A stretch of DNA of 64,000 nucleotides, from NCBI GenBank assembly GCA_024280835.1, contig JAJRPJ010000006.1, positions 441,749 through 505,748 of the forward strand, in the 5' to 3' direction. The stretch comes from Candidatus Zixiibacteriota bacterium (GTDB lineage: Bacteria; Zixibacteria; MSB-5A5; GN15; JACZUZ01). The notes below the pieces were generated by a model, which searched no databases, was not told where the DNA came from, and worked only from the letters and a program-made list of their open reading frames with translations. The position numbers and the translations under genes were made by a program. Positions 29,437 to 39,959 of this stretch are shown in pieces. The stretch's first letter is position 1. Every line of letters begins with the position of its first letter.

Positions 29437-29889
29437 ATGACGACAAACTTTGATAAAACATATTTGGGCATTGATTACGGCGACAAACGCACTGGTCTAG
29501 CGATTTCCGACGCTGGTGGTACTTTGGCTGGCAGTTACAAAACCATTCAGGCATCATCTTTGAAATCCTGCGCCGTGCTAATCAAGCAGGAATTTGCCGA
29601 AATCCAGCCAGTGGGTATAGTTGTTGGCTATCCTGTTGCCGTTGATGGAGGGGCTGGTGAACGCTGTGAAGTTGTCGATATGTTCATTGCTGAACTGAGT
29701 AAGCTCACTGAGCTACCGATTTACCGTCAACAAGAGCGGGGAACCACAAAAGCTGCACAGGAAGTCATCCACGCTCATGGCAAAAAAGTCACAAGAAAGA
29801 GAAAGAAAAGCGGAGCTCTTGATCAAATTGCGGCAGCTCTGATTCTACAGCGCTGGCTCGATGATCCGCAGCGAGAAAGTTCAGAATAA
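29437..29889 (+). CDS. ruvX: Putative pre-16S rRNA nuclease / Holliday junction resolvase YqgF (RuvX)
   Basis: A 150-residue RNase H-fold protein: YLGIDYGDKRTGLAIS with the first catalytic Asp, VVGYPVAVDG, YRQQERGTTKAAQEV with Glu, and SGALDQIAAALILQRWL with the last Asp. The family matures 16S rRNA ends and has been linked to recombination. It is followed 36 bases on by mltG, a neighbour of yqgF in many bacteria. No good Shine-Dalgarno precedes the ATG. Confidence 0.92.
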   Translation: MTTNFDKTYLGIDYGDKRTGLAISDAGGTLAGSYKTIQASSLKSCAVLIKQEFAEIQPVGIVVGYPVAVDGGAGERCEVVDMFIAELSKLTELPIYRQQERGTTKAAQEVIHAHGKKVTRKRKKSGALDQIAAALILQRWLDDPQRESSE

Positions 29890-29925
29890 CTTGAAACAGA
29901 CTCACAATACAGGCCACTGTCTCTG

Positions 29926-31041
29926 ATGCGCTTCCGTTGGCATGAGTATGCGATCTATCCGTTGACGTTCATTGGCCTGACTCTGGCATTGGGAATCGTT
30001 GGAATTGGCGCTACTCTGGCCACTATAATAATAGCTATGACTAAACCGCTAAAATCACCCAAGAACTTTATCATCTCCTTAGCAGCTCTGGCTCTAATCA
30101 GCGGAGGAGTGGTTTGGCATTACTATACTGTAGAAACCACTCTCAACGAACCGACAGTTTCAGTGACTGTCACACCCGATATGAGTTTCGGACAGTTGAC
30201 TGACTCTCTGACGAACTTGGGTGTAATCGATAAACCAAAGTTTTTCAAAATCTTCGCGCGAATTCGTGGAATTGATAAGCGGCTCTGGGTTGGACGTTAT
30301 GACTTTTCAGGGGAAATTTCTGTGCGCAATGTTTTGGATATGTTTGCAACTGGCACAGTTGCCATGACTTCGGTGACAATACCCGAAGGATTGCGCATAG
30401 AACAAACAGCGGGACTTCTTTCTCGGGCCTATGAACTTGATTCCGCTCGAATCGTTCGACAGGCGTTTGATACATTGTTTTGTGAGGAGCGCTACAAGTT
30501 ACCCAATCTCGAAGGCTACTTATTCCCAGAAACTTATAGCTTCCCAATCGGAGTTTCTTTGCTGGATGTTCTCGATAAAATGGTTGCTGATACGCGTCGC
30601 GTTGTAGAGCAAGAACTTCAGGGAGCCGATAATTTTGTTTTGGACGAAAAAGAAATAATCGTCATGGCTTCAATAATTGAGGCAGAAGCCAGAGTCCGGT
30701 CCGAGCAGAAAACTATTTCCGCTGTATATCATAATCGTCTCAAGAAAGGTATGCTAATGCAAGCCGATCCAACAGTGCGTTATGGACTGGGGCGTTTCAA
30801 GCGTAAGCTGTATTTCAAACATCTCAGAATTGCGACACCATATAACACTTATATGCGCAAAGGTCTGCCGCCTGGAGCCATCAATTCTCCTGGGAGACAG
30901 GCAATTGTTGCGGCGATTCATCCAGACGAAAGCCCATATTTGTACTTTGTCGCCGATGGAAGTGGTGGACATGTTTTTACAGAAACTTTAAGCGAGCACA
31001 ACCGAGTTAAGCAAAAGTTGAAGTCCGAAGGTAAGCGTTGA
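29926..31041 (+). CDS. mltG: Endolytic peptidoglycan transglycosylase MltG (YceG-like)
   Basis: A 371-residue inner-membrane lytic transglycosylase that cuts nascent glycan strands. Typical blocks are SFGQLTDSLTNLGVI (LysM-like part), LEGYLFPETY, VMASIIEAEARV with the catalytic Glu, YHNRLKKGMLMQADPTVRYGLG and AINSPGRQAI. Two hydrophobic segments lie at about residues 13-37 and 46-62, whereas the family usually has one. An internal ATG at 30037 would give the one-helix form, so the first 37 residues are uncertain. It probably forms an operon with ruvX. Confidence 0.92.
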   Translation: MRFRWHEYAIYPLTFIGLTLALGIVGIGATLATIIIAMTKPLKSPKNFIISLAALALISGGVVWHYYTVETTLNEPTVSVTVTPDMSFGQLTDSLTNLGVIDKPKFFKIFARIRGIDKRLWVGRYDFSGEISVRNVLDMFATGTVAMTSVTIPEGLRIEQTAGLLSRAYELDSARIVRQAFDTLFCEERYKLPNLEGYLFPETYSFPIGVSLLDVLDKMVADTRRVVEQELQGADNFVLDEKEIIVMASIIEAEARVRSEQKTISAVYHNRLKKGMLMQADPTVRYGLGRFKRKLYFKHLRIATPYNTYMRKGLPPGAINSPGRQAIVAAIHPDESPYLYFVADGSGGHVFTETLSEHNRVKQKLKSEGKR

Positions 31042-31066: not shown

Positions 31067-31726
31067 CTAATCTTGATTGGCGATTGCCGGAGAAATTGCT
31101 GGAATAGCGGTGACAATGGTGGCGATGTGATTAGTGAGTTTCTCTAGGCTTTCCGAGAGCTGTTCTGAGTAGGCGCTGATTGTCGATTGGCAGTCGCAAT
31201 TCAATGTCACAGCTCCCATAGATAATTGATTGACTGCGAGCGGATACATCCCCAAGCAGCCACTAGCCGAAACTACCAGCGCATGACGTTCAACGAAATT
31301 ACCTCGGAAGTCATCTGCGGGAGTGATAGTCTTAAGACAATGAGAGTCGCATATCTCATATAGCGCTGAGTTCTCTCGAGGAATGGAGACCCCAAGCCCC
31401 GCGCGAACAATCTCTCTGTCACTAATAGCAATAATCGTTAAGGCTACCTGTGACGTGTCAGTTGCTGTATTGTCTTGAGCTGTATTTCCTTGATGAGCCA
31501 AAATAAAACCTGCGCGCCGTAATTCCAAACTCTTTGGCAATGCGCGTACAAATTGTTCGAAAGCGTCAGGGATTTCATTAGTCAGGATGTGTGGGTCAAT
31601 TTCTGAGAGAAGAGATTTCAAGCAATAACTTTTGGTGTAGGCATTTGTTTGTCCAGAGGATTTGCCGTTCCATTTGAGATCACACAGTTTCCTGTTTGAA
31701 GGCATGTTATCTGAGAAATTTTGCAT
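31067..31726 (-). CDS. GAF-like hypothetical protein of the atypical regulator cluster
   Basis: A 219-residue cytoplasmic protein without a recognised catalytic domain. Residues about 60-190 have GAF-like order: VALTIIAISD, GLGVSIPRENSALYEICD, ADDFRGNFVERHALVVSAS, and YPLAVNQLSMGAVTLNC. An amphipathic C-terminal helix follows. The DDF-GNF-E and MGAVTLNC elements resemble GAF ligand domains. It lies 156 bases downstream of the NtrC-like regulator on the same strand and may be a signal receiver for it. GAF is inference from pattern only. Confidence 0.5.
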   Translation of the reverse strand: MQNFSDNMPSNRKLCDLKWNGKSSGQTNAYTKSYCLKSLLSEIDPHILTNEIPDAFEQFVRALPKSLELRRAGFILAHQGNTAQDNTATDTSQVALTIIAISDREIVRAGLGVSIPRENSALYEICDSHCLKTITPADDFRGNFVERHALVVSASGCLGMYPLAVNQLSMGAVTLNCDCQSTISAYSEQLSESLEKLTNHIATIVTAIPAISPAIANQD

Positions 31727-31882
31727 AGTAGACAGTACTCTTTGTAAACAATATTATCTTTGCTTGATTGGTAGCTGGCCTAGAGATGTAATCAATGTGC
31801 ACGTCAGTCGGACTTCAAATGTGCCCATGGCAAAAATGAAGCCCGACAGTTTTCCCACGCTGTTTACAAATAAGAACAAAAG

Positions 31883-33325
31883 CTAGTGACCCAGCTTTTC
31901 GCTGACTAAGTCTTTAGATAGATTGTACTTTTTGACCTTACGCCAGAGAGTTGTGCGTCCAATGCCCAACTCAAGAGCAGTTTGCGAATAATTCCATTTG
32001 TTATCCTCGAGTGACTTGAGAATTCGCGCGCGGTATGTCATTTCCAACGAGCCATCGGAAGATGATGCGGCCACTCTTGAGAATATCTCGGTGTGCTCAT
32101 CAGAGTTGACGAAGAAAATATCATCAGCAGTAACTTCGGAGGATTGCGCGAGGGCGTTTGCGCGACGTAGGACCGCCTTGAGTTCCGCCACATTTTCCGG
32201 CCAAGAATGTTGCATGAGTTTTTCCAGAGCAGCGCCACTGAGGTGTCTTTCAGTGTGGCTGGCGAAATCCTTAGCTGTCAGGCTATTTGGCAACATAAAG
32301 CGCTTCGCCAAAGGCAAAATGTCCTCAGCGCTGTCTCGCAATGATGGAGCGTTGATAGTTGTCACTTCCACCAACTTAAGTAGCTCTGTGGAAAACTGTC
32401 CTGCGATTGTGGTCTCAGGCAGATCACGACTTGTTGTGGCAATTATGCGAACATCACTTGCCACTTCGGCAACGTTTGTGTTGGCTGAATTGGCGCTGGT
32501 TGAATTTAGCGCCACATGTAAGACACTGGCGAGTTTTCTCTGTGTTTCTATCGGAAGAGCATCAATATCCTTCAAGATTAAAGTTCCGGTATTGGCTCTT
32601 GCAAGCAATCCACCTGCTCGTGAGTTAAACACTGTGCGATGTGCGTTACTTGGTCCAAATAGTTCACTGTCGATAAGTCTCTTGGGAGTTCCTGCGCAAT
32701 CAAAAGTTATCAGTGGGCATTTTCTACGAAGAGAATGGTGATGGATAATTTTTGCAGCGGTATTCTTGCCAGAGCCTTTTTCGCCGCTGATTAGAATAAA
32801 TGTATCGCTTTCCGCGGCCTTGGCGATTGTCTCTTTGAACCGTAAGGTAGCCACGGAGTCACCAAGTAGTCCGTCATAGCTATAATCGAAAGCTACTTGT
32901 TGCTTAAGTAACGTAACTTCATTAAGCAAACGACGGTGTTGTAGCGCGCGCTCAACAACCATCAGAAGCTTTTCAACTTTGTACGGCTTTTCAATATAGT
33001 CATAAGCGCCGGCGCGAGTTGCTCTCTGGGCGTTGTCAATTGTTCCGAATCCAGTTTGCAATATGACTTCTGTGTTCGGGTGGCGCTCCTTAATTGTCCT
33101 AATGAGATTGATACCTGTTAGATCTGACTCAGAACTATGATCATTCATTCTCAAGTCAGTGATGACGATGTCATATTCTGTGTCTTCCAGGAGCGTCAAT
33201 GCTTGAGTCGGATTCTCTGCGCAGGCAACTTGAGTGATATATGTGCCGAGCCCACGCTCCATTACCCGACGAATCAATTCGTCGTCATCTACAAATAGTA
33301 CTTTACAATCTACCATAGTCTTCAT
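31883..33325 (-). CDS. NtrC-family response regulator with degenerate AAA+ domain
   Basis: A 480-residue regulator: receiver domain (residues 1-125, phospho-acceptor Asp57 in VITDLRM, Lys in IEKPYK), sigma-54-type AAA+ domain (150-400) and a Fis-type helix-turn-helix (NYSQTALELGIGRTTLWRKVKKY). The AAA+ core is abnormal. Walker A is GEKGSGKN (181-188) instead of GESGTGKE. The GAFTGA loop expected after ELFG (221-224) is absent, and the R-finger segment reads FSTELLKL without Arg. It therefore probably cannot drive sigma-54 and may act as a DNA-binding regulator with sigma-70. Upstream, ATGCTTTCAA is repeated with a 14-base period (near 33392-33415). Confidence 0.9.
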   Translation of the reverse strand: MKTMVDCKVLFVDDDELIRRVMERGLGTYITQVACAENPTQALTLLEDTEYDIVITDLRMNDHSSESDLTGINLIRTIKERHPNTEVILQTGFGTIDNAQRATRAGAYDYIEKPYKVEKLLMVVERALQHRRLLNEVTLLKQQVAFDYSYDGLLGDSVATLRFKETIAKAAESDTFILISGEKGSGKNTAAKIIHHHSLRRKCPLITFDCAGTPKRLIDSELFGPSNAHRTVFNSRAGGLLARANTGTLILKDIDALPIETQRKLASVLHVALNSTSANSANTNVAEVASDVRIIATTSRDLPETTIAGQFSTELLKLVEVTTINAPSLRDSAEDILPLAKRFMLPNSLTAKDFASHTERHLSGAALEKLMQHSWPENVAELKAVLRRANALAQSSEVTADDIFFVNSDEHTEIFSRVAASSSDGSLEMTYRARILKSLEDNKWNYSQTALELGIGRTTLWRKVKKYNLSKDLVSEKLGH

Positions 33326-33431
33326 CTTTCCTTGAGTCAGTTATGTTCAAATGCTGTGTTTGTTTTTTCTTGTTAAGACCCTTGCTAGCCGATGCTTTCA
33401 AAGGCATGCTTTCAATAGGACCATTCCCCGG

Positions 33432-34709
33432 CTATAATACTTCGTCACCATCAGGGAAGTGTTTGTCTTTGAGAGTAATGTCCACAGTTTCTTCGCCATC
33501 CTTGTTGTAGGATCGCAAACGTACAACGCCTTGATCATCGATTGGTGATAATTTGATACGCCCTCCAGTTGGCAAATGACGTAACGCGATTTCTAAAGCT
33601 TTGTGGGCTTCGGCAAAAGGCGCTTGCTCTTCAGATTGAATTGTCTCGCTTTGTATTGACTCACTGCTAGACTTGGTTGAGCCGCCAGTTGAGTCAATTT
33701 TTGAGTGTGTTTGTTCGGTAGTCATTTGAGTTAGACCTTTCTCATTTGTTTGAGATGTCCGACCGTGATCGTCCAAAGAGTCGCCAACAGATAAACTGTT
33801 GCCTGAGAGCGCCGCTTCAATGGCAGAACTAAGCCTGGTGCGGACTTTGTCACCAATGTCGAAATTCTGAGCAAAAGGTGTCACGTGTTCTTGTCCGAGT
33901 TCAGAGCGGAGAAAAGTTACTAGAGTCAAACTGCGAGAGTTGGCTGTCTCTTGAGAAGTAATATCGTTATGTGCGGTCGTCGGCACATTGACTTGGCTAC
34001 GAGTTTCTGCCAGATAGCTCAATAACGAAGAGTGAAGTTCCCATTGGCTGACTGCGACTTGGTTGCGCCAAATGATGTCTCCATTTTCAGTGTCAATCAA
34101 GACTCTAGCCAGATGAGGCAATTGTTGACAACGCTCGACAATGTCAGTGAGGACAATTTGATCGGCGCACAATTGACGTAGCGCCTGCCGAACCGCATCC
34201 CGAACCAAGTCGTCACGGTCATCTTCGCCAAGGAAGGCCGCTCCGATAATCAGTGGTCTATCACCAATAGCAACACCACTACAAAATAGTATTGTATCGA
34301 AACTCTTATGGTCTGCATCGGACTGATGCCTCTGATGCTTTGAATTGACCCGAATAGTGTGTAGTTGAGGTTCAACACCAACTGAATTACCCGAATTGAT
34401 TATTTGATCCAGCGTTTCAATTTCCAAAGCAGGAGAAACCAAAGGGCAAGCTCCATAGATTAGGATAGGTTGTACATGAGAGGGTAGCGCCTGACTAATT
34501 AGTTGACGAGAGGTCTCGCCGAGAGCTTTGTGGCTTAGTAAGTCTAAAGTTAGAGGCAGTGAGCATTTTGTATCTGGATATTGTCTCTTTGTCACAGATT
34601 TCCAACAAATACTTTGCAATGTTACGCCGCCGTGACGCATAACAGCATTCAAAGAGGCCCGTGGGGCTTCCTGATTGTGATGGGTCTGGTGCTGGATTAC
34701 TTTAGACAT
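33432..34709 (-). CDS. Hypothetical sensor-like protein, possible degenerate histidine kinase
   Basis: A 425-residue soluble protein upstream of the NtrC-like regulator. Residues about 70-190 have GAF-like order (ILIYGACPLVS ... IGDRPLIIGAAFLGEDDRDDLV), and VLIDTENGDIIWRNQ (about 205) is PAS-like. The C-terminal EAHKALEIALRHLPTGGRIKLSP resembles the N-box helix and strand of HATPase domains (as in NLLLNAIDAMPxGG), but no phospho-accepting His block, G1 or G2 box follows. A Ser/Thr/Gln-rich linker separates the parts. It looks like a sensor kinase that lost catalysis. This is inference; no family is firmly recognised. Confidence 0.5.
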   Translation of the reverse strand: MSKVIQHQTHHNQEAPRASLNAVMRHGGVTLQSICWKSVTKRQYPDTKCSLPLTLDLLSHKALGETSRQLISQALPSHVQPILIYGACPLVSPALEIETLDQIINSGNSVGVEPQLHTIRVNSKHQRHQSDADHKSFDTILFCSGVAIGDRPLIIGAAFLGEDDRDDLVRDAVRQALRQLCADQIVLTDIVERCQQLPHLARVLIDTENGDIIWRNQVAVSQWELHSSLLSYLAETRSQVNVPTTAHNDITSQETANSRSLTLVTFLRSELGQEHVTPFAQNFDIGDKVRTRLSSAIEAALSGNSLSVGDSLDDHGRTSQTNEKGLTQMTTEQTHSKIDSTGGSTKSSSESIQSETIQSEEQAPFAEAHKALEIALRHLPTGGRIKLSPIDDQGVVRLRSYNKDGEETVDITLKDKHFPDGDEVL

Positions 34710-35092
34710 TGCGTGTCGTTCTTATTTTTAACGCTAGTGAATCGCTCTTCTGCAAAAAGTATCTGTTTAGAACTAATTGAAATGTTTCGCGAAATTTGTT
34801 TCAACGCTTAACATCTACTAGCAGTATCGACTGGAGGCCATATTCCTTTAGCTATGCGTTTCGATTTGGCGCCGGAAAATCAATATTCAGGCAAACTACG
34901 ATTCACCTTGGGGCGAAATTCAATTCGGAAGAAATTCCTCTGACTCCCGTGCGATTGTGAAAGCCAGCGCTGGCCATTGTTTCAGGATGATTCTTATCCA
35001 TGCCTTAGAGATATTCCTCTCTAAGATGTTCTGCCTTAGGGAGATATTGGAAGCGTTCATCAGCTAGATTGAGGAAATCGTACAATTAAGGG
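34710..35092. other. Intergenic region with a 12-base palindrome
   Basis: No gene is visible between the sensor-like gene and gatC. A perfect palindrome GCCAGCGCTGGC sits at 34963-34974, and the segment TAGAGATATTCCTCTCTA near 35007 is also inverted. Either could be an operator or part of a transcription end. Confidence 0.45.
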
Positions 35093-35121
35093 TTGACGAG
35101 CCAAGGGCCCGCCGATATATT
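35093..35121 (+). promoter_or_regulatory. Strong promoter placed for a leaderless gatC transcript
   Basis: TTGACG (35093-35098), exactly 17 bases of spacer, then TATATT (35116-35121). The -10 ends only 5 bases before the ATG at 35127, so transcription should begin at or next to the A of ATG. There is no Shine-Dalgarno in front of this ATG, which agrees with leaderless translation. Confidence 0.65.
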
Positions 35122-35126
35122 TGCGC

Positions 35127-35414
35127 ATGGCAATTTCGACAAAAGAAATAGAAAAAGTATCCCTCTTAGCTCGGTTAGAGCTGAGTTCTGAAGAAATCGA
35201 GTCTTTGGCTGTGGATATGTCAAATATCCTGAGTTATGTGGAAACTCTCGCGGAGGTTGATACTGATTCCATCAAAGATGTTGATCTTGCTGAGAGTTCG
35301 GCCAATGTTTTTCGCGACGACATCCCCAAGAAATCCCTAACAAGGGCTGAGGCGCTGCGAAACTCTCCTAAACATAATGATGAGTTTTTCTTGGCTCCCA
35401 AGGTGATTGGATGA
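35127..35414 (+). CDS. gatC: Aspartyl/glutamyl-tRNA amidotransferase subunit C
   Basis: A 95-residue GatC, the small bridging subunit of the GatCAB complex that converts Glu-tRNA(Gln) or Asp-tRNA(Asn) to the amide. Typical blocks are KVSLLARLELSSEEIE, MSNILSYVETLAEVDT, VFRDDIP and EFFLAPKVIG. gatA and gatB are not adjacent; kdsB follows immediately instead. The ATG at 35127 is preferred over the TTG at 35121, which overlaps the -10 box. Confidence 0.93.
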   Translation: MAISTKEIEKVSLLARLELSSEEIESLAVDMSNILSYVETLAEVDTDSIKDVDLAESSANVFRDDIPKKSLTRAEALRNSPKHNDEFFLAPKVIG

Positions 35415-35418
35415 CACT

Positions 35419-36174
35419 GTGGCGAAAGTAGTGGCAAAAGTAATCGGAGTTATTCCAGCACGGTTAGATTCCAAGCGGTTTCCCGCCAAGGCCCTCGCGC
35501 CTCTAAAAGGGAAGCCGCTTCTTTTTTATGTCTGGCGACAGGCCTGCAAAGCCAAGGCTCTTGACAAAGTAATCATCGCTACTGACTCAGCTAAGATCGA
35601 TAAAGTCGCCAGAGACTTTGGCGCTGAAACGATCATGACCCCCAAAGGTTTGCGGAATGGCTCCGAGCGTGTCGCCGAAGTAGCCAACAAAGTATCGGGT
35701 GATATTTTTGTCAGTGTTCAAGGTGACTTCCTAAAATTCAACCCCAATTGGATAGACTCTGGCGTCTCGGCGCTCCGCGCCCAGAAACAACTTCAATTCC
35801 TGACTCTAGTCACTCGCATCACCGATGACCGTGAATTGTTCAATCCCGATAGAGTCAAAGCTGTCGTTGTTGGTGAATCATCATCAGAGGCGTTGTGGTT
35901 TACCAGATACCCTGTGCCGTTTATGCGCGATGAAGTCGAGTCAGATATCTGGAGGCGGTTCAAATACTGGAAACATCTCGGAATATATTTCTACCGTCGC
36001 TCTGGTTTGAAGCTGTACCAAAGCTGGCCAATGAGCGCTCATGAGAAGGCTGAATCATTAGAACAGCTAAGAATACTTGAGAATGGCAAGAAAATCGGGA
36101 CAATTGTTGTGCGCGGCAAATCTATTTGCATTGATTCGCCAGAAGATCTCAAAATCGCTTCCAATTCTCGCTGA
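35419..36174 (+). CDS. kdsB: 3-deoxy-manno-octulosonate cytidylyltransferase (CMP-Kdo synthetase)
   Basis: About 251 residues. It activates Kdo with CTP for lipopolysaccharide inner core. Visible: VIGVIPARLDSKRFPAKALAPLKGKPL, VIIATDS, NGSERVAEVA, VSVQGDFLKFNP, HLGIYFYRR and AEKAESLEQLRILENG. The family motif normally reads QGDEP; here it is QGDFLKF, a change near the active site. GTG at 35419 with AAGGTG 13 bases upstream is preferred over TTG at 35407, which overlaps gatC by 8 bases. No other Kdo gene is in the window, but it supports an LPS-type outer membrane. Confidence 0.88.
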   Translation: MAKVVAKVIGVIPARLDSKRFPAKALAPLKGKPLLFYVWRQACKAKALDKVIIATDSAKIDKVARDFGAETIMTPKGLRNGSERVAEVANKVSGDIFVSVQGDFLKFNPNWIDSGVSALRAQKQLQFLTLVTRITDDRELFNPDRVKAVVVGESSSEALWFTRYPVPFMRDEVESDIWRRFKYWKHLGIYFYRRSGLKLYQSWPMSAHEKAESLEQLRILENGKKIGTIVVRGKSICIDSPEDLKIASNSR

Positions 36175-36317
36175 ATCATATATATAGTATAGACGCCATG
36201 TTTATGTGGGTTGGAAGTTGATAGCCAAGCGGTAAATTGCAGGATGCAAATAACGGGAATTGGTTTATTAGGTCTGAGTAGCAGGCAGGGTTAGCGGCGA
36301 AAACGGAAATAGAGTAG

Positions 36318-38051
<1,734 letters not shown>

Positions 38052-38075
38052 CGCTAGTGATTGTCTGGGGCGAAG

Positions 38076-38444
38076 ATGTACGAATTATTTATCAAGACTC
38101 ATTTTTCCGCTGCGCACCATCTACGTAATTACGAAGGCAAATGCGCCAATCAACATGGGCACAATTGGCAGGTTGATGTCTACTGCCAATGTACTGAGCT
38201 AAATGACGTTGGCATGGGTATAGATTTTGTGGATCTCAAAGCCGCAGTCAATGCGACTCTCGATAAGCTCGATCACACCGATCTCAACGAGCTTGATTAT
38301 TTCAAAGAGCACAATCCAACTTCCGAAAACCTTGCAAAGTATCTTTTTGATATTCTCTCAAGTCAACTCAATGACAGCCGTGTCCGTATCTCAAAAGTAA
38401 CAATCTTCGAAACGCCAACCTGCGGCGCAACTTATTCCGCATAA
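38076..38444 (+). CDS. queD: 6-carboxy-5,6,7,8-tetrahydropterin synthase
   Basis: About 122 residues of PTPS-fold enzyme for the first committed queuosine step. Zinc His in FSAAHHLRNYEGKC and NQHGHNW, active Cys in GKCANQHGH, Asp/His in LDHTDLNE and C-terminal Glu in FETPTCGA are all present. ATG at 38076 is preferred; a TTG at 38061 would add five residues. It opens a queD-(membrane gene)-queE-queC-queF run, all on the plus strand with short gaps. Confidence 0.93.
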   Translation: MYELFIKTHFSAAHHLRNYEGKCANQHGHNWQVDVYCQCTELNDVGMGIDFVDLKAAVNATLDKLDHTDLNELDYFKEHNPTSENLAKYLFDILSSQLNDSRVRISKVTIFETPTCGATYSA

Positions 38445-38460
38445 CTTCGGAGGCGCAACT

Positions 38461-39315
38461 GTGTCATCAGAGACAAGAGTCACAAGGGAAGACGTAGAAA
38501 AGCGAAAGCGCGATTTAGCGTTTTCGTTCTTTACTTGCTTCATCGGTTGGCTGGTTGCAATGATGGCGTTTTATGTATTCTTGCTCATAGCAGAAGAGCA
38601 CAATCCTAACCATTCGATGTTCGCTGTTGTTGGGGTGTTGTCATTGATCGCCCTATTCATTGGATGGATTGCATTGTACTCAGTAGCTCAGAGGAGAGTC
38701 GCCAGCAACAGTTCTCTATTTTCTCAAAAGTCAGCTTTTCTATGGGGTGCAGTTTATGGGAGCGTGACGTTTTTGATTTTATATGGTTGGTTTATCATTC
38801 CAGCCAACATTAATGCCATTGATTCAGTTATTGCGCTTGATCCCTATTGGTCATTGCCAGCATTAATTACTTTCTCAATCATCGCTGGTGGAGTAGGAAA
38901 TCAACTCTTCGTTGCTTATCGCAATAAACCAGTTGTTTCCCACATTCACAGAGGTTTGTATTTCTTAACTCCATTTGTAGTAGTAATAGCAACCAAATTG
39001 TTTGTTGCGCCATTTCTCGCTATTGTATTTCCAGGATTCATGCACAAGTATGGAACTGATGAATTGGCAGCGTCTGCGCGCAATCGTGTCGTTCTTTCAA
39101 TAGAAGTAGGTGATCATATTAGTGACATAAACAACGTCATCCCAGAAACTATTGGGTATTATCAGGCGGGCGACCCGAAAAATCTAGCTCTCCTTCAAGA
39201 GTATACGGACGTAATTTGGACTCATTCGAGTGATTCTGATTACAGCACAACTATCGAAGTTCATGGTATTACTGTGATCTCAACAAGTACAACGTCTTAT
39301 CGGCGAAGCCACTAA
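38461..39315 (+). CDS. Integral membrane protein embedded in the queuosine operon
   Basis: A 284-residue protein with about five hydrophobic segments (FFTCFIGWLVAMMAFYVFLL, VVGVLSLIALFIGWIAL, WGAVYGSVTFLILYGWFI, LPALITFSIIAGGV, FLTPFVVVIATKLFVAPFL) and a soluble C-terminal ~80 residues. The start is GTG at 38461 with GGAGG at 38448-38452. It lies 16 bases after queD and 5 bases before queE, so it is co-transcribed with them. No family is recognised. A link with queuosine precursor transport is possible from context, but the topology does not resemble YhhQ as I know it. Confidence 0.75.
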   Translation: MSSETRVTREDVEKRKRDLAFSFFTCFIGWLVAMMAFYVFLLIAEEHNPNHSMFAVVGVLSLIALFIGWIALYSVAQRRVASNSSLFSQKSAFLWGAVYGSVTFLILYGWFIIPANINAIDSVIALDPYWSLPALITFSIIAGGVGNQLFVAYRNKPVVSHIHRGLYFLTPFVVVIATKLFVAPFLAIVFPGFMHKYGTDELAASARNRVVLSIEVGDHISDINNVIPETIGYYQAGDPKNLALLQEYTDVIWTHSSDSDYSTTIEVHGITVISTSTTSYRRSH

Positions 39316-39320
39316 CTCAG

Positions 39321-39959
39321 ATGCTAACTATCAACGAAATCTTCCATTCAATCCAAGGTGAGTCAACCTTCACTGGCTGGCCATGTGCTTTTATCCGACT
39401 GACATGGTGCAATTTGCGTTGCAATTATTGCGACACTGTCTATGCCTATGAAGAAGGCGCCGAAATGACTATCGATAAGATTCTCGAAACTGTCGCGGAT
39501 TATGGCGTCAAACTCGTTGAGATTACAGGTGGTGAACCACTTGTGCAAAAAGAAACTCCCGAACTTGCACGGCGCTTGCTTGAGAATAATTACACTACTT
39601 TGATTGAAACTTCTGGTTCATTGGACATCGGTGTTCTGCCTGATGGCTGTCGTCGGATTGTGGATTTCAAAACACCTTCTTGCGGAATGGCTGGCAAGAA
39701 TCTATGGGAGAATGTTCGTCACCTCAATGACAATGACGAAGTCAAATTCGTGATTGGTTCACGTGCAGATTTTGAATGGGCCACTGCCAAAATTGTTGAA
39801 CACAGTCTACAGGATACCTGTCCGATTAGTATGTCACCAGTCTTCGGCAAGCTAGAGAACCGCACACTTGCCGATTGGATTTTGCGTGACTCACTAGAGG
39901 TTCGCCTCAATCTTCAAATCCATAAATATATTTGGGACCCAAAGACACGCGGTGTCTAA
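39321..39959 (+). CDS. queE: 7-carboxy-7-deazaguanine synthase (radical SAM)
   Basis: A 212-residue radical SAM enzyme converting carboxytetrahydropterin to CDG. N-terminal INEIFHSIQGESTFTGWPCAFIRL, the cluster CNLRCNYCD (Cys-x3-Cys-x2-Cys), VEITGGEPL for SAM, and a C-terminal LNLQIHKYIWDP are all family-typical. It follows the membrane protein by five bases and precedes queC. Confidence 0.95.
   Translation: MLTINEIFHSIQGESTFTGWPCAFIRLTWCNLRCNYCDTVYAYEEGAEMTIDKILETVADYGVKLVEITGGEPLVQKETPELARRLLENNYTTLIETSGSLDIGVLPDGCRRIVDFKTPSCGMAGKNLWENVRHLNDNDEVKFVIGSRADFEWATAKIVEHSLQDTCPISMSPVFGKLENRTLADWILRDSLEVRLNLQIHKYIWDPKTRGV

Follow-up and report, generated by a model that had tools for sequence, protein, structure and literature searches.

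The window analysed here, a 64,000-nucleotide (nt) stretch of DNA (G000:C8:441749-505748) from a 3.3 Mb Candidatus Zixiibacteriota genome, G000, that is 96% complete, carries on its minus strand a three-gene operon, UP-REG-DN. The reading that we favour, with a probability of roughly 0.57 on comparative sequence evidence, is that this operon descends from an NtrC-type two-component system that has lost its sigma-54 machinery, and that its regulator, REG, would now serve as a DNA-binding switch on sigma-28-type promoters, in the first place that of its own operon. The evidence consists of the residues that REG and its partner UP have kept and lost, a series of syntenic orthologues across the order, and a sigma-28-type promoter followed by an inverted repeat before the operon. 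The genes and the decisive positions in REG are the following.

31883..33325, minus strand: REG, degenerate NtrC-type regulator, 480 amino acids (aa), with receiver, AAA+ core, lid and Fis-type helix-turn-helix (HTH)
33432..34709, minus strand: UP, probable eroded sensor-kinase homologue, 425 aa, with GAF-like N-terminal part, PAS-like remnant and Asp287 in the His column, without ATP boxes
31067..31726, minus strand: DN, stand-alone protein with a GAF fold, 219 aa, occupying the same place in the operon in relatives
32609..32665, minus strand: GAFTGA loop position in REG, loop absent (ELFGPSNAHRTVFNSRAGG)
32564..32581, minus strand: Walker B position in REG, LILKDI
32366..32401, minus strand: arginine-finger stretch of REG without Arg, GQFSTELLKLVE
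31919..31972, minus strand: recognition-helix segment of REG, ELGIGRTTLWRKVKKYNL, core LGIGRTTLWRK in 66/66 orthologues

The regulator and its two partners

REG matches the Pfam families Response_reg, Sigma54_activat (110 bits against a cut-off of 20.2), AAA_lid_14 and HTH_8 (41 bits against 22), as well as full-length NtrC-family structures, and its receiver pocket is complete, with the acid pocket VDDD, Asp57, Thr91 and Lys113. An earlier account of this DNA made from the letters alone (the sequence-only reading) had described three genes on one strand around a regulator that keeps Asp57, the AAA+ layout and the Fis-type HTH and cannot be a normal sigma-54 activator, and both the layout (34709-33432, 33325-31883 and 31726-31067, all minus) and the verdict hold. 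PSNAHRTVF stands after ELFG in place of the GAFTGA loop, Walker A reads GEKGSGKN and ends in Asn as that account had said, and both arginine fingers are lost. Two further changes had not been noted there: the Walker B acids are gone (LILKDI versus LFLDEI-type in intact orthologues), and sensor I reads TSRD where TNRD is expected, its Asn being lost. With loop, Walker B and arginine fingers gone, REG is no normal sigma-54 activator. Its receiver also carries a six-residue insert in the loop after Asp57 (window 33145-33113; NDHSSESDLTG versus NDG...TG), shared with the sister genome G001 alone among the orthologues in that alignment.

The order was sampled as 80 genomes in four families. RpoN is encoded in the window genome and was found in 72 of the 80, including 44/44 good ones. 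The window genome has 14 Sigma54_activat matches, namely REG, one weak partial match (L015, 31 bits) and 12 others, and all 12 of the latter keep a recognisable loop (GAFTGA, GAFTGS, GAYTDA or GSFSGA). Since RpoN is retained in the order and the loop in 12/12 other strong activators, sigma-54 itself has not been lost.

UP has no Pfam match at E 1. It is assigned to the kinase slot because members of the family in that slot match HisKA (6/21) and HATPase_c (6/21) at E 0.1 and the family profile has ZraS as its best PDB match (1e-19). In an alignment to kinase relatives the His column holds Asp287 and the N-box column Gly; the phospho-accepting His and the N and G boxes are absent from UP. Aligned with the kinase family (hhalign probability 81%, E 1.3e-5), a three-sequence profile of the window's family covers residues 49-299 and places Asp287 opposite His. 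The sensor kinase without His and ATP boxes that had been proposed from the letters is thus probable, while the N-box-like stretch attributed to it finds no support, with Gly in that column; with Asp287 in the His column and the ATP boxes absent, the kinase partner does look dead. Read by eye and with moderate confidence, the predicted model of UP contains a GAF-like N-terminal part and a PAS-like piece.

DN of the window has no Pfam GAF match of its own. A GAF match at E 1 is present in 15 of 18 members of its family, and its predicted model, with a predicted local distance difference test score (pLDDT) of 81, has a GAF domain as its best PDB match (E 2.6e-6), so that the GAF-like pattern suspected in the sequence-only reading, which had named structure prediction as a check, is borne out through relatives and predicted fold.

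The syntenic series across the order

The trio is flanked by divergent gatC-kdsB-pyrG and convergent mltG-ruvX, and the order pyrG-kdsB-gatC / UP-REG-DN / mltG-ruvX recurs among relatives, at syntenic loci in the four families, which answers the question of conservation that had been raised with the first description; the genes adjoining UP differ in some relatives (e.g. G041, G044 and G038). Orthologues were taken as REG adjoining DN, together with those of G006 and G042, genomes in which DN was not found, and of G007, where DN is on a different contig, which gave 68 loci; removal of G059 (short, not the orthologue) and G061 (cut by a contig end) left 66. The counts that follow run over related genomes, and Fisher values calculated on them were therefore set aside.

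The sigma-54 loop, as G[AS]FT, is present in 22 of the 66 orthologues (0/3 in f1, the window's family, 5/7 in f2, 8/11 in f3 and 9/45 in f4), Walker B DE in 27, the first arginine finger in 33 and the Walker A Lys in 60. Receiver Asp57 is kept in 33/64, the kinase His in 24 of 60 loci and the kinase N-box Asn in 11 of 60. These losses are nested: loop-bearing members all keep Walker B and the first arginine finger, all 31 members without Asp57 also have no loop, and all 11 members with the kinase N box retain the loop. The counts suggest an order of loss in which the kinase ATP box went first, then the loop, then Walker B, arginine finger and receiver. Eleven residues of the recognition-helix segment, LGIGRTTLWRK, are identical in all 66 syntenic orthologues. 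Mean pairwise identity among loop-less members is 0.19 in the receiver, 0.37 in the AAA+ domain and 0.69 in the HTH, and among intact members 0.46, 0.67 and 0.62, respectively; REG of the window and that of G001 are 0.71, 0.74 and 0.90 identical over the same three parts.

Loop state was placed on a FastTree tree of four flanking proteins from the 63 genomes with sufficient flanking sequence. It requires 8 changes, or 10 losses with regain barred; 25 bootstrap trees give 6-10 changes and 9-15 losses with regain barred, and 200 label shuffles give at least 13. The parts of this regulator that drive sigma-54 have apparently been lost several times over in one order. The phosphorelay-free variant raised as a possibility in the sequence-only reading fits much of the order, where the Asp is lost in 31/64 members and the kinase His in 36/60 loci, and is less certain for the window, where the receiver pocket is intact and REG may be phosphorylated by another donor; the ligand-driven variant offered beside it is only suggested by the two GAF-like proteins.

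The promoter, the candidate operator and the proposed switch

The elements before the operon are the following.

34846..34850, minus strand: TAAAG, sigma-28-type −35 element (published consensus PMC2859248, PMC8325347)
34824..34830, minus strand: TCGATAC, sigma-28-type −10 element, 15 nt past TAAAG
34798..34812, minus strand: GTTAAGCGTTGAAAC, candidate operator, whose right arm fits the order-wide repeat and whose left arm does not; identical in sister genome G001
34979..34993, minus strand: GAATCATCCTGAAAC, second, better-matching repeat, farther upstream

Across the order the composite element reads TAAAG-N15/16-CCGATA followed by the inverted repeat GTNTCANNNTGAAAC. Its −35 and −10 parts match the sigma-28 consensus, printed as TAAAGTTT-N11-GCCGATAA in PMC2859248 and given as TAAA / GCCGATAA in PMC8325347, and the window has such a promoter ahead of the operon, in a genome that encodes FliA. 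The sequence-only reading missed this conserved promoter and operator as well as the intact form of the locus in sister families. Over up to 2.3 kb before REG, with 60 loci covered and six not, a relaxed pattern finds the composite in 59/60, window included, versus 0.07 in 30 shuffles (39/40 eroded and 20/20 intact members), and a strict pattern finds it in 45/60 versus 0 in 30 shuffles, the patterns having been discovered and counted on the same loci, so that the shuffles understate the search done. The gap between promoter and repeat is 13 nt in 43/59 loci. GTNTCANNNTGAAAC with limited variation lies upstream of the UP start in 44/60 usable regions versus 0.02 in 100 shuffles. Genome-wide, the composite has 48 matches in 44/80 genomes versus 2 for the reversed pattern; by coordinates 8/48 lie away from the locus and the remainder at it, five matches on other contigs precede UP genes, and two on other contigs (G060, G023) are unconfirmed.

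A dyad scan of the upstream regions had also returned TTCA-N3-TGAA in 21/64, versus a mean of 1.2 in 50 shuffles; these copies lie mostly in the first UP codons and could reflect a conserved peptide, and the site upstream of the start was used instead. A second repeat, GTTTCANNATGAAGC, occurs about 41 bp downstream of the first, within the UP frame, at many f4 loci (e.g. L061, L064), either as tandem operators or as a conserved peptide.

These observations have led us to propose a model in which a FliA-type polymerase would start the operon and a REG dimer would bind the repeat immediately downstream of the start. As the repeat occupies the place of the first bases to be transcribed, binding of REG would block transcription and make the operon self-limiting. 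Through sites that lie 120-230 nt ahead of pilM, HDOD and cheW genes, REG would be able to tune motility and chemotaxis genes without ATP hydrolysis. The route for signals would be the GAF-type proteins UP and DN or, in the window, the intact receiver of REG, rather than the dead kinase, and the DNA binding of REG would be set by UP and DN or, where the receiver is kept, by its phosphorylation. The ancestor would have had both a sigma-54 output and a self-binding site, the latter outliving the former: since the composite is present in 20/20 covered intact members, the self-binding site probably predates the loss of the sigma-54 output. The wider proposition is that a single two-component system, at a syntenic locus, has been taken apart at least six times in parallel within one order (kinase, receiver, ATPase and sigma-54 contact), with the recognition helix and an operator fused to a sigma-28 promoter kept by selection, turning an enhancer protein into a phosphorelay-free, ATP-free operator switch of a sigma-28 (motility) regulon; this is put forward tentatively, at slightly under an even chance of being right.

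Candidate targets come from the repeat elsewhere. GTNTCANNNTGAAAC has 296 occurrences in the 80 genomes (strands counted apart) versus 73 for the reversed pattern, and GWTTCANNNTGAAWC lies in 6, 6 and 5 places in G000, G001 and G002 versus 2, 0 and 0. Four of the six G000 sites have a G001 counterpart: (i) a stand-alone receiver gene, with the repeat and a full sigma-28-type promoter just upstream in both genomes; (ii) a PilM-like gene, about 123 nt (G000) and 114 nt (G001, gene matched by eye) downstream of the repeat; (iii) an HDOD gene, with the repeat about 163 nt (G000) and 152 nt (G001) upstream, inside an overlapping frame; and (iv) a site that falls in a coding frame. The repeat also lies about 228 nt upstream of G000 cheW, 58 nt before a flagellin-domain gene in G012, and, in other genomes, near genes for CheA-like, CheW, GGDEF and cyclic-nucleotide-binding kinase proteins. 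Only part of the repeat matches was fetched, and no enrichment by function is therefore claimed. Many matches are in-frame, and repeats within frames at L336, L338 and L342, near flagellin-domain genes, were read by eye as coding and set aside as targets. In genus g32 (L303, L305, L330) the repeat lies 114-128 nt upstream of a cyclic-nucleotide-binding histidine kinase gene, which has CCGATA only about 10 nt before its ATG, as in a leaderless message; in genus g35 (L344, L347) a fused LpxC/FabZ-like gene, named by eye, is preceded by it at 134-135 nt.

Sigma-28 itself is widespread in the order, with FliA above cut-off in 73/80 genomes and flagellin domains in 77/80, and TAAAG-N15-CCGATT precedes the flagellin genes at L311 and L336. 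The FliA open frame (G000:C12:213343-214002 and f1 relatives), measured stop to stop, spans 346-433 aa in four genomes of the window's family versus about 295 aa in most of the other genomes listed for the order, possibly a family-specific extension. The window genome also has three intergenic sigma-28-type promoters (G000:C8:140937-140963, G000:C10:13917-13943 and G000:C12:400596-400622), followed by genes for a putative lipoprotein, so named by eye, a GAF protein that matches HisKA weakly, and a protein with DUF4388.

Several observations weigh against REG as a switch on sigma-28-type promoters, in addition to the shuffles that understate the search. The link between repeat and REG is only inferred, and in the window's own copy the left arm is poor. 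TAAAG-N14-16-CCGATA is not enriched in the window genome (8 versus 9), whose flagellin gene shows no such −10; among 19 shorter flagellin-domain genes, of which the starts of four were readable by script, the composite precedes none, a loose −35/−10 six and a loose repeat two. The homology of UP to kinases is moderate at the hhalign values given above, its predicted model is poor (mean pLDDT 66), and a PDB search with that model gave no match at E 0.001, so that the structure was dropped as evidence of fold.

The best-placed alternative is that REG still activates, from sigma-70 or sigma-28 promoters, through phosphorylated Asp57, as NtrC of Caulobacter and Rhodobacter does from sigma-70. The intact receiver pocket of the window, the existence of loop-less NtrC proteins that activate (PMC10274813) and the repeats upstream of pilM, HDOD and cheW would all suit an activator. 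At its own operon, however, the site lies downstream of the −10 element, the position of a repressor, and nearly half of the orthologues have no Asp57 to phosphorylate (31/64), so that we regard activation as unlikely, if a serious contender.

The repeat may instead belong to another factor, such as an intact NtrC-type activator with a similar helix, REG being a relic or otherwise employed in an operon under that factor. Some repeats lie 100-190 nt upstream of genes, and 3 of 28 site-to-gene stretches hold a sigma-54-like promoter (L355, score 11; L345, minus side, 10; L301, minus side, 9; of 12), a further point against the switch: the background for scores of at least 10 is 0.028 per kb, or about 0.1 expected, and the observed number is above chance. 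Some repeats may therefore serve an intact sigma-54 activator. In the genomes of L355, L345 and L301 the REG loop is lost or REG is unconfirmed, and these are perhaps sites of such an activator; two further sigma-54-like matches of score 9 lie upstream of the repeat (L295, L327). Against this stand the presence of the repeat at REG's own operon in 59/60 covered loci and the invariance of the recognition-helix core. Moreover, repeats number 12 versus 9 control in the eight genomes in which no orthologue was found and 284 versus 64 in the other 72, a weak comparison, as several of the eight are incomplete and the best regulator match was inspected in six. Another owner of the repeat is accordingly held to be improbable.

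An action at the RNA level, with the repeat forming a small hairpin in the operon leader, is very unlikely. The repeat does fall within the 5' leader as predicted, with arms complementary to each other, but pairing would require T as the third base of the left arm, and 43/50 sites have C, A or G there; copies upstream of promoters elsewhere would fall outside the message. Least credible of all is a functionless, decaying pseudo-system that has simply not been deleted so far. Many members have indeed lost their kinase, ATPase and receiver motifs, but reading frames stay open and the operon keeps its order over four families, the HTH is conserved no less than in intact members, and the promoter-operator element is still present.

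Known relatives and surroundings of the operon

Loop-less NtrC relatives that work on sigma-70 promoters are known (PMC10274813, PMC3162934). NtrC of Caulobacter and of Rhodobacter capsulatus are, like REG, NtrC-type response regulators without the GAFTGA loop, and the Caulobacter protein both activates and represses, its own operon being repressed (PMC10274813). In those cases the loop is deleted and the kinase, NtrB, works, whereas here Walker B, the arginine fingers and the kinase are also lost, in several lineages and with a sigma-28-type promoter. TyrR, DhaR, HupR and VpsR are likewise former sigma-54 activators that became independent through changes at the GAFTGA site (PMC3162934); these are single cases, and the passages of that paper considered here describe no series across an order in which a single syntenic locus goes from intact to dismantled. 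FleQ of Pseudomonas aeruginosa is linked to motility, has an unphosphorylatable receiver, acts on both sigma-54 and sigma-70 promoters and represses through a box over the start site (PMC10723142); it differs in having kept an active ATPase and the sigma-54 loop, with FleN and cyclic di-GMP as partners. Kinase/NtrC-type pairs like ZraS-ZraR share the receiver-AAA+-Fis layout of REG, and ZraS, as noted, is the best match of the UP family profile; unlike such pairs, UP of the window has no His or ATP boxes and REG no loop, Walker B or arginine fingers. Among open-licence papers on GAFTGA with FliA and on Zixibacteria with NtrC or two-component systems, no title or abstract describes this locus.

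The known loop-less NtrC proteins are thus separate cases, while the present locus offers a natural series that runs from intact members by way of half-eroded ones to proteins reduced almost to DNA binding, within an order that has kept sigma-54. With such a series one can test what an enhancer-binding protein retains once its motor is lost, in what order the losses come and how a regulon could pass from sigma-54 to sigma-28. It also carries a warning for annotation, as REG of the window passes the Pfam Sigma54_activat cut-off five-fold despite its lost motor.

The flanks of the operon that recur with it are the following.

29437..31041, plus strand: ruvX and mltG, conserved flank
35121..38051, plus strand: gatC, kdsB and pyrG, conserved divergent flank

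Beyond pyrG, window 38061-39959 encodes a 6-pyruvoyl-tetrahydropterin synthase homologue, a radical SAM protein and, between the two, a 284-aa protein with no Pfam match at E 0.001.

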